A stretch of DNA of 64,000 nucleotides, taken from NCBI RefSeq assembly GCF_030295405.1, contig NZ_AP027080.1:1860001-1924000 (forward strand), written 5' to 3'. The stretch is from Mesoterricola silvestris (lineage in GTDB: Bacteria > Acidobacteriota > Holophagae > Holophagales > Holophagaceae). Of this stretch, positions 29,936 through 32,516 are shown one piece after another; positions within the stretch are counted from its first letter, which is position 1; every line of letters begins with the position of its first letter. Both the position numbers and the translations under genes were made by a program. The notes under the pieces are model-generated. The model was not told the DNA's origin. It ran no database searches and saw only the letters and a program-made list of their open reading frames with translations.

Positions 29936-30391
29936 CTAGATCGCGGGATCCAGCCAGGCGATGGGGTCGCTGGGCACGCCCACCACATTCCCCACCCGCA
30001 CCGCCGCGGCCACGACCCAGCCTGAGGGACGACCGATCTGACGCATGTCCAGCTGAACGACGCCGCCGGGGGCCGGGAGATCCGGGCGGCTGCGTTCCAG
30101 CACCACTTCGCCCCGGGTGAGCACCTCCTGGGCGGAGGGACGGGCAGGGCCCAGGGGCAGGAGGAAGACCCGCACCTTCTCCACGCCCACGAGGCTTCCG
30201 CCCCGGGCGTCCAGAACGGGAAGGCGCACCTCCAGCACCCGGTGGGCGGTCCAGCGGATGACGCAGGGGCCGGGCGCCGCGCGGGTGCGGGGAATGGGGT
30301 CGCCCTTGCGCCCACAAGCGGCCAAGGAGAGGACCAGGAGGACTGAGATTATGGACCTTGCGGTCAGGTTTGGTAGTCTGGGGGTTCGCAC
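29936..30391 (-). CDS. LptM-like lipoprotein with fibronectin-III-like domain
   Basis: 151 residues from a GTG at 30391; no good ribosome-binding site is visible, so the start is uncertain. A lipoprotein signal ends in SLAAC (Cys26), followed by GRKGDPIPRTRA. That resembles the CGxKGxL start of LptM/YifL-type lipoproteins, which associate with the LPS transporter LptD. The remaining 110 residues look like a beta-sandwich domain and are much longer than LptM. Function is not known. It is divergent from the biotin-carboxylase-like gene. Confidence 0.65.
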   Translation of the reverse strand: MRTPRLPNLTARSIISVLLVLSLAACGRKGDPIPRTRAAPGPCVIRWTAHRVLEVRLPVLDARGGSLVGVEKVRVFLLPLGPARPSAQEVLTRGEVVLERSRPDLPAPGGVVQLDMRQIGRPSGWVVAAAVRVGNVVGVPSDPIAWLDPAI

Positions 30392-30442: not shown

Positions 30443-31942
30443 ATGCCCGTCACCAGATTGCTCATCGCGAACCGAGGCGAGATCGCCTGCCGGATCATGC
30501 GAACCTGCCGCGAAATCGATATCCCCACCGTGGCCGTCTATTCGGATTCGGACCGGGGGGCCATGCACGTCCGCCTCGCCATCCTCTCCGTGCCCATCGG
30601 TCCCACCCCCGCCCGGGAAAGCTACATGCGCGCCGACAAGCTCATCGAGGCCTGCCGCAAGACCGGGGCGGATTCCATCCACCCGGGCTACGGCTTCATC
30701 GCCGAGGACCCCGAGGCGGTGCGGCAGATCCAGGAGGCGGGCATCACCTGGCTGGGCCCCAGCGCGGAAGTGTTGGAAAAGATGGACAACAAGATCACCG
30801 CCCGGGAAATCGCCCGGTCCGTGGGCTGCCCCGTGCTGCCCGGGATCCAGGAGACCATGGGCGACGAGGAGCTCCTGGACGAGGCAAGGAAGATGGGCTA
30901 CCCCCTCATGGTCAAGCCCGTGCTGGGCCGGGACGGCAAGGGCATGCGCCTGGTGAAGACCGCCGGGGACCTGCGCCGGGCGCTGCCCCGGGTGAAGGGG
31001 GAGAGCATCTTCTCCTTCTGGGACGAGCGGGTCTACCTGGAGAAGGCCATCGTCCACCCCCGCCACGTGGAGGTGCAGATCGCCGGCGATTCCCACGGGA
31101 ACTACGTCTACCTGTGGGAGCGGGAGGGCTCCGTGCAGCGGCGCTTCCAGCAGATCTGCGAGGAGGCCCCCTCCCCGGGCGTCACCCCCGAACTGCGCCG
31201 GACCCTGGGGGAGCAGGCCGTGGCCATCGCCCGGGCCGTGGGCTACGTGGGCATCGGCACGGTGGAGTTCCTCCTGGACCAGGAGGGCAACCACTACTTC
31301 CTGGAGATGACCTGCCGCATCCAGGGGGGCCACGCCGTCACGGAGTGGATCACGGGCCAGGACCTGGTGAAGTGGCAGATCGACATCGCCCAGGGCAAGA
31401 AGCTGCCCCTGACCCAGGACAAGATCCCCTTCTGGGGCCACGCCATCCAGTGCCGCATCAACGCCGAGGACGCGGACCGGGACTTCGCCCCCAGCTCGGG
31501 CCGCATCCAGTACCTGCGCTCGCCCCAGGGGCACAATCTGCGCAACGACAGCGGCGTCTACTTCGGCTGGGAGATGTCGCCCTTCTACGCCCCGCTGCTG
31601 GCCAAGATCTCCACCTGGGGCCAGACCCGCCAGGAGGCCCTGCAGCGCATGCATTCGGCCCTCATGGAGATGCGCCTGGGCGGCGTGCGCAACAACGTGG
31701 CCTTCTTCAAGACCCTCCTGGAGAACAAGCAGTTCCTCAAGGGCGACCTCCACACGGGCATCCTCGCCCACCCCTGGTGGAAGCAGAAGGCCGTGGGCCC
31801 CAGCCTCAAGTTCGCCGTGGCCGCCGCGCTCTTCGACGAACTGGAGATGGAGGAGCGCCGGGCCCAGCAGCCCACCCCCAGGAACGACTGCGTCCCCACC
31901 AGCCAGGCCTGGAAGTCCCTCAACAAGTTCAACCGGCTCTGA
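30443..31942 (+). CDS. Biotin carboxylase-like protein with altered active site
   Basis: 499 residues; the ATG at 30443 follows GAGGAAGAGG. The fold is clearly AccC-like (LLIANRGEIACRI, SIHPGYGFIAEDPE, HPRHVEVQI, CRINAED). Compared with E. coli AccC, several residues differ. The Gly loop GGGGRGM is GRDGKGM (162-168), RDCS is REGS (227-230) and bicarbonate-binding Lys238 is Gln237. Asn290 is Thr290, Val295 is Gly295, and the catalytic base Glu296 is Gly296; Arg292 and Gln294 are kept. ATP-binding Lys158 remains. Ordinary bicarbonate-dependent biotin carboxylation is therefore unlikely. The next gene, 7 nt on, encodes an intact biotinyl carrier. No carboxyltransferase is adjacent. Confidence 0.85.
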   Translation: MPVTRLLIANRGEIACRIMRTCREIDIPTVAVYSDSDRGAMHVRLAILSVPIGPTPARESYMRADKLIEACRKTGADSIHPGYGFIAEDPEAVRQIQEAGITWLGPSAEVLEKMDNKITAREIARSVGCPVLPGIQETMGDEELLDEARKMGYPLMVKPVLGRDGKGMRLVKTAGDLRRALPRVKGESIFSFWDERVYLEKAIVHPRHVEVQIAGDSHGNYVYLWEREGSVQRRFQQICEEAPSPGVTPELRRTLGEQAVAIARAVGYVGIGTVEFLLDQEGNHYFLEMTCRIQGGHAVTEWITGQDLVKWQIDIAQGKKLPLTQDKIPFWGHAIQCRINAEDADRDFAPSSGRIQYLRSPQGHNLRNDSGVYFGWEMSPFYAPLLAKISTWGQTRQEALQRMHSALMEMRLGGVRNNVAFFKTLLENKQFLKGDLHTGILAHPWWKQKAVGPSLKFAVAAALFDELEMEERRAQQPTPRNDCVPTSQAWKSLNKFNRL

Positions 31943-31949
31943 GGAAATC

Positions 31950-32516
31950 ATGAAACGCACCCTAGTCGTCGCCGACGAGACCGTCGAGCTCGAGATCTAC
32001 CGCCGCCGCGGCACCACCGTCATGACCTGGGACGGCGTGGAGGTTCCCCTGGACATCGTGAAGGTGGAGCGCTCCAGCTATTCCATCATCATGGAGGGGC
32101 GCAGCGTGGGCGTGAACATCGACCGCATCCGCAACCCCGATCCGGATCTCCACGGCTTCCGGGCCGCCACCTACGACGGGGCCTACGAGTTCACCCTGCA
32201 GGACCCGCGCAAGGCGCTCCTCGCCGAGGCCATGGCCCGCAGCAAGCGCAGCGAGGCCAAGCTCCTCATCGCCCTCATGCCCGGCAAGGTGCTCAAGCTC
32301 CTCGTGCAGCCCGGGGACATCGTGGAGGAGGGCCAGCCCCTGCTCATCCTCGAGGCCATGAAGATGCAGAACGAGTACACGGCCCCCACCGCCAGCCGGG
32401 TATCGGCCATCCACGTGGAGGAGGGCGCCAACCTGGAGATCCACGCGCCCATGATCTCGCTGCAGAACCTGGAGCCCGCCGAAGGGGAAGGCCCGGAATC
32501 CGCCCCCAAGGGGTGA
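31950..32516 (+). CDS. Biotinyl-domain carrier protein
   Basis: 188 residues. The C-terminal biotinyl domain (about 105-175) has the biotin attachment motif EAMKM (Lys138), with IALMPGKVLKLLVQPGDIVEEG before it. The N-terminal 90 residues (beta-rich, VMTWDGVEVPLDIVKVERSS) resemble the region that precedes BCCP in propionyl/methylcrotonyl-CoA carboxylase alpha chains. Paired with the upstream carboxylase-like protein, it looks like a split alpha subunit. The biotin site is intact although the partner's catalytic residues are not. Confidence 0.85.
   Translation: MKRTLVVADETVELEIYRRRGTTVMTWDGVEVPLDIVKVERSSYSIIMEGRSVGVNIDRIRNPDPDLHGFRAATYDGAYEFTLQDPRKALLAEAMARSKRSEAKLLIALMPGKVLKLLVQPGDIVEEGQPLLILEAMKMQNEYTAPTASRVSAIHVEEGANLEIHAPMISLQNLEPAEGEGPESAPKG

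Follow-up and report, generated by a model that had tools for sequence, protein, structure and literature searches.

Can a protein that keeps the fold and the ATP site of biotin carboxylase (BC) do without the catalytic residues of that enzyme, and what would it do beside an intact biotin carrier? The question arises from a gene pair in a 64,000-nucleotide stretch of the Mesoterricola silvestris genome (hereafter the window), where an initial annotation described a BC homologue lacking its catalytic base. E296 and K238 are the textbook catalytic residues of BC, and their joint absence from a natural lineage under strong conservation, with the ATP site intact, puts the need for them directly to the test.

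Active-site residues and gene integrity

Both open reading frames were full-length and in frame, as the initial annotation had stated. The BC homologue scored well over the cut-offs of three Pfam domains (Biotin_carb_N, CPSase_L_D2 and Biotin_carb_C), and its AlphaFold model (mean pLDDT 83.4, weak only past about residue 445) matched solved BCs over about 442 residues (3ouz; Z about 52, rmsd about 1.6), so that domains and predicted structure agree on a retained BC fold. It missed the cut-offs of NCBIfam accC (517.6 vs 626.5 bits) and PRK08591 (522.9 vs 597). A small lipoprotein-like gene (LAACGRKGD; positions 29936-30331, minus strand) with no Pfam match lies between coaBC and the BC gene and recurs in relatives at the same locus.

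Table 1 Features of the gene pair, in window positions; residues of the BC homologue are compared by E. coli AccC numbering.
Feature	Position	Strand	Remarks
Altered biotin carboxylase (pseudo-BC candidate), P0001, 499 aa	30443..31942	+	3 BC Pfam domains, BC fold, 15/15 altered orthologues
Biotin carrier with N-terminal BT-like region, P0002, 188 aa	31950..32516	+	7 bases downstream of BC gene
Glycine (ATP-lid) loop GRDGKGM replacing GGGG(R/K)GM; G164R/E, G165D/H/N	30926..30946	+	
Codon of Q237 = E. coli K238	31151..31153	+	Q in 14/15, E in 1/15
F235 = E. coli H236		+	Two codons upstream of Q237
T290-C291-R292-I293-Q294-G295-G296 replacing N-T-R-I-Q-V-E	31310..31330	+	Base E296 gone, R292 and Q294 kept
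Codon of A383 = E. coli D382	31589..31591	+	Ala in 15/15; Asp in every other sequence not gapped at this position
Carrier linker preceding biotinyl domain	32220..32276	+	Gly content differs between groups
Codon of K138, expected biotinylated lysine of EAMKM	32361..32363	+	Kept in 15/15 altered-clade carriers

Residues were numbered after the E. coli AccC sequence, which aligned without anomalies and whose numbering yields the published catalytic residues. Every change listed in the initial annotation (E296G, K238Q, N290T, V295G, C230G and the GRDGKGM loop) was present, and K116, K159 and R292 were retained, in line with its statement that the ATP lysine and R292 are kept. The window protein carried H236F, T291C, D382A, E336Q, P351S and F102W as further fixed changes beyond that list. 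Across 15 altered orthologues, K238Q/E, H236F/Y, N290T, T291C, V295G, E296G/S, D382A and a remade glycine loop were fixed, such that the catalytic/bicarbonate residues E296, K238 and V295 were changed in all 15, while C230 was variable (Gly in 12, Cys in 3). In every complete altered sequence the glycine loop contained an acidic residue (D165 or E164, for example). Residues at G164, G165, H236, K238, N290, T291, V295, E296, E336, P351 and D382, and at a few positions outside the site, were disjoint between altered and normal proteins, while R16, K116, K159, E201, Q233, E276, L278, E288, R292, Q294 and R338 were kept in all; the ATP/Mg residue H209 was His in 14 of the 15, including the window protein, and Gln in one. 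All eight contacts tallied on the ATP side were kept vs three of seven on the bicarbonate/biotin side (one-sided p = 0.026, illustrative only because the list was chosen by hand). Judged from these residues, the bicarbonate/biotin side of the site has been dismantled and its ATP side preserved.

The changed positions have defined roles in known enzymes. E296 holds bicarbonate, R338 and D382 contact biotin, and all three are named as strictly conserved (PMC11077971); some residues in that work follow C. aurantiacus numbering, and its D382 is probably that of E. coli. The loop bearing K238, a residue involved in carboxylation, links the ATP site to the biotin site and shows full conservation at every position but that of the His, H236, which is naturally variable and is Tyr in M. 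tuberculosis AccA3 (PMC5407890). A sequencing or assembly artefact was ruled out, as the residue set occurs in three single-contig genomes (the home genome G000, G073 and G077) and in metagenome-assembled genomes (MAGs) of five genera. The altered-residue observation is real, and stronger than could be seen from the window alone.

Distribution, origin and constraint of the altered protein

In a class-wide search, orthologues of the BC homologue ran through one family, Holophagaceae (GTDB family f1), which has members from soil and presumably from termite guts. The altered set was found in 15/15 orthologues of genera g1, g8, g9, g10 and g11, while standard residues were found in 23/23 orthologues of the sister genera g2, g3, g5, g6 and g7 and in 12/12 other BCs, including the home-genome AccC, other Holophagae BCs and E. 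coli AccC. On this alignment, a residue set shared across 15 orthologues is not chance. In a BC tree from an alignment stripped of the trait columns, the altered proteins formed one clade (support 100/100, stem branch 0.5) with the normal protein of a g5 genome (G060) as sister (support 97/92), and a separate carboxyltransferase tree gave the same grouping. The substitutions are therefore conserved as a clade of single origin, which the initial annotation had proposed to check.

Because coaBC, BC and carrier genes adjoin each other in both altered and normal groups wherever contigs are long enough, the BC change happened in place. A recent duplication beside a normal copy was unsupported, as the altered gene occupies the coaBC locus of the normal orthologue where contigs allow. 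Homologues with standard residues, which the initial annotation had named as evidence against its reading, do exist, but they are same-locus orthologues of sister genera and thus mark the change as a derived, clade-limited switch, leaving that reading intact.

Selection on the gene was assessed from dN/dS by Nei-Gojobori counting. Altered-clade pairs with usable dS had values of 0.05-0.09 (one pair 0.17), compared to 0.04-0.12 for pairs of normal orthologues. Two pairs with low dS gave 0.26 (G000-G073) and 0.34 (G000-G076), values probably biased by GC-saturated third positions; because dS appeared underestimated in these pairs and was saturated in g11, only other pairs were used. Purifying selection indicates that the gene is maintained, as first suggested, and together with the intact frames disfavors a pseudogene. 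It is also highly improbable that the protein is a relaxed, drifting remnant of an unneeded BC decaying in place: the longer stem branch (0.5) would be in keeping with decay, but the gene is intact in all sampled genera with dN/dS far under 1, the same residues are fixed in 15/15, and the carrier and a candidate partner carboxyltransferase are conserved alongside.

Strong purifying selection would also be expected of a new ATP-grasp ligase, in which R292 and Q294 would hold some carboxylate in place of bicarbonate, its phosphorylation by ATP would need no base, and the pocket opened by G295, G296 and A382 would have room for a larger acid or a different nucleophile. Those residues that serve ATP and Mg are kept, together with R292, Q294 and R338, the changes fall exactly on the base and the pocket, and a new invariant cysteine (C291) adjoins R292. 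Other ATP-grasp families (PurK/PurT) work without E296, which counts for such a ligase. Yet no substrate gene, new domain or changed neighborhood hints at another acid, the gene still lies beside a biotin carrier with the coaBC synteny of normal orthologues, and its fold matches were BCs throughout, so that we regard a new ligase as improbable.

The motif FLEMTCRxQG occurred at 12 loci among 84,980 species, all Holophagales by title save one, and a looser pattern, EMxxRxQG, matched the altered clade only among 396 Acidobacteriota-level genomes; BCs lacking E296 but with a different motif would escape both searches. The exception is a MAG record titled Bacillota (L155, JAJTBC010000305.1), which has the same match position as a g8 genome (G069) and is probably mislabelled. 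Within all collections searched, the altered BC is confined to Holophagaceae.

Genomes in which the altered protein is the sole biotin carboxylase

The window sits in a single-contig genome of 4.99 Mb that holds three further BCs (L002, L003 and L004), all with standard residues, as well as AccA and several carboxyltransferases. The separate normal AccC that the initial annotation had asked about is thus present, along with two other BCs, and the altered protein is not the sole BC there. Using a sensitive search, we found a single Biotin_carb_C protein, the altered one, in each of five MAGs of g9 (G072) and g11 (G080-G083); the g11 genomes are Holophagales MAGs, presumably from termite samples judging by isolate names. 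The other observation named in advance as evidence against the reading, that this is the only BC and is active, therefore holds in its first part for g9 and g11 and fails for the home genome. AccA was absent from g8, g9 and g11 and kept in g1 and G078. If assembly gaps were independent, which they are not fully, the chance of missing AccA in all nine MAGs would be about 3 × 10−9 and the corresponding chance for a second BC, over five MAGs, about 2 × 10−5. FabD and methylmalonyl-CoA mutase were present in g8, g9 and g11, save that FabD was undetected in one g8 genome (G070), and malonate decarboxylase, an alternative malonyl source, had no match over the cut-off.

With the altered BC as sole BC beside FabD, either BC chemistry is done otherwise or malonyl-CoA is made without it; either outcome would be surprising, and the situation occurs in at least two genera. 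The reduced 1.2-Mb genomes of genus g2 (L059/G009 and L060/G008) have no AccA, keep FabD and have one BC with standard residues, which suggests that BC, carrier and the single-gene carboxyltransferase that we call CT-solo can together serve as acetyl-CoA carboxylase.

A still-active BC with a rebuilt site, in which D165 or E164 of the glycine loop or C291 replaces E296 and K238 and the protein remains the BC of CT-solo, would account for these genomes. The altered protein is the sole BC in five g9 and g11 MAGs that have FabD and CT-solo and lack AccA, and g2, whose BC is normal, shows that a genome can have this BC/carrier/CT-solo set as its only one. The entire ATP site, R292, Q294 and R338 are kept, the glycine-loop acid is present in every complete altered sequence, and the H236 position varies naturally. 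However, K238, E296, V295, N290 and D382 were replaced together, though invariant in the other BCs compared and, for the K238 loop outside its His position (PMC5407890) and for E296, R338 and D382 (PMC11077971), described as conserved. The structure of the E. coli E296A variant (3g8d) was among the structural matches. In the E. coli enzyme, either K238Q or E296A severely impairs function. Furthermore, g1 and G078 keep AccA, which places the changes at a time when a normal acetyl-CoA carboxylase was still present in the lineage, so that they were not forced by a need for activity. On balance, an active rebuilt BC seems unlikely; the preserved ATP site and the sole-BC genomes nonetheless keep both it and the new ligase alive.

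Putative partner proteins and comparison with known systems

The explanation that we favor, tentatively and at somewhat less than even confidence, is that the protein is an ATP-binding pseudo-BC and belongs to an acyl-CoA carboxylase that has become a transcarboxylase, which makes malonyl-CoA from methylmalonyl-CoA without the BC reaction. The gene pair would be the remnant of an ancestral promiscuous acyl-CoA carboxylase composed of BC, BT-carrier and the separately encoded CT-solo, in which the bicarbonate/biotin half of the BC site would have been dismantled in the common ancestor of g1, g8, g9, g10 and g11 with retention of the BC fold and ATP/Mg site. The BC subunit would most likely be a pseudo-biotin-carboxylase that binds ATP and serves to hold the complex or to gate it. 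The carrier would be charged without the BC reaction, in that CT-solo would take the carboxyl group from methylmalonyl-CoA and pass it to another acyl-CoA, notably acetyl-CoA, giving malonyl-CoA. We infer a loss of biotin carboxylation and joint action of the three proteins in a complex that transcarboxylates, with malonyl-CoA as product; the pseudo-BC may bind ATP and have a structural or regulatory role.

The partner proteins bear on this explanation. The EAMKM biotinylation motif that the initial annotation had seen in the adjacent carrier was kept in all 15 altered-clade carriers. The linker before the biotinyl domain was mostly more charged in the altered clade and had 0-3 Gly among its 20 residues there, vs 3-7 in g3, g5, g6 and g7; such a loss of glycines on the altered branch is weakly in keeping with shuttling to a distant BC site being unneeded, and few (2-3) were also found in g2, which has a normal BC. 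CT-solo (G000:4863055) is unlinked to the BC-carrier pair, present and partly syntenic in altered and normal groups, and co-distributed with the pair, of which it is a candidate partner carboxyltransferase. In its alignment, 272 of 511 columns were invariant and only eight were switched between groups. The equivalent of S. coelicolor PccB D422 was Ile in 11/11 altered-clade CT-solo proteins, Cys in 17 normal ones and Asp in a 12S-like protein; an Ile there is associated in S. coelicolor with the use of acetyl-, propionyl- and butyryl-CoA, though context matters (PMC7835884).

A transcarboxylase link had been proposed before the search that found a 12S-cupin-5S-1.3S transcarboxylase-like operon in the altered clade. 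In the home genome (G000:C1:1523100-1527000; L111, 8105-12225), a 12S-like carboxyltransferase, a 110-aa cupin, a 5S-like protein with metal and Lys motifs and a biotin carrier lie in a row, and a cupin is again placed between 12S and 5S in g1, g8, g10 and g11. A 5S-like gene beside a 12S-like gene was absent in g2, g5, g6, g7 and nearly all of g3. Because 5S gain and BC change fall on one branch, their link amounts to a single coincidence. The BC-carrier pair lies outside the operon, which is found elsewhere (G000:1523446 on) and has its own carrier in relatives, arguing against a link to the pair. Further against a link between 5S and BC, one Geothrix-like g3 genome (G054) has an independent 5S-12S-small-carrier operon (L123, G054:C41, 6390-10194), with another gene order and a distant 12S, beside a normal BC orthologue (L128), while three of the four g11 MAGs (G081-G083) have the altered BC without detected 5S. 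A Na+-pump type operon (MmdA-like carboxyltransferase, OadG-like small protein, biotin carrier and Na_pump_decarbB; L125, L129, L170 and L181) was also observed in g8, g9 and g11.

Other observations weigh against the pseudo-BC explanation. Its conserved ATP site argues against a mere scaffold, which should not need one. In PCC-type holoenzymes the BT domain, rather than the BC domain, makes the main contact with the carboxyltransferase, which leaves the need for a dead BC unexplained. The home genome keeps AccABCD-type genes, so malonyl-CoA supply cannot explain the pair there. For g9 and g11, it is possible but doubtful that an acyl-CoA transcarboxylase, with the conserved ATP-binding pseudo-BC as a subunit, has replaced classical acetyl-CoA carboxylase and derives the malonyl-CoA for fatty acids from methylmalonyl-CoA, bypassing the ATP-dependent BC step. 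The initial interpretation thus held for selection, clade conservation, the intact carrier and the separate normal AccC; among the functions it suggested, a storage partner had no specific support, and the genomic surroundings fit better with a carboxyl-transfer complex for which the BC half-reaction has become unnecessary.

A literature search, with most subscription journals outside its reach, found no paper on the altered BC. Compared to the BC subunit of acetyl- and acyl-CoA carboxylases (AccC and the BC domain of PCC/MCC alpha), the window protein has the same architecture, fold, ATP/Mg residues, R292/Q294/R338 and carrier pairing, but lacks E296, K238, V295, N290, T291 and D382 and has a GRDG loop (in the clade also GE(H/D/N)G). 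A BC-fold member without the defining catalytic residues is not filed as a biotin carboxylase. The normal orthologue of Geothrix-like and neighboring genera (g2, g3, g5, g6 and g7) shares the coaBC locus where sampled, the carrier and CT-solo, and differs by having all standard BC residues. The proposed likeness to the Wood-Werkman methylmalonyl-CoA:pyruvate transcarboxylase (12S, 5S and 1.3S) is carboxyl transfer between carrier-linked sites without a BC reaction, and a 12S-5S-1.3S-like operon occurs in the altered clade, but the gene pair lies outside it; known transcarboxylases have no BC domain, which is limited to carboxylases (PMC3199775). BADC of the plant heteromeric acetyl-CoA carboxylase is alike as a non-catalytic homologue of a component kept for assembly (PMC7835884), but BADC is carrier-like without biotin, whereas in the present pair it is the BC subunit that is altered, beside an intact carrier.
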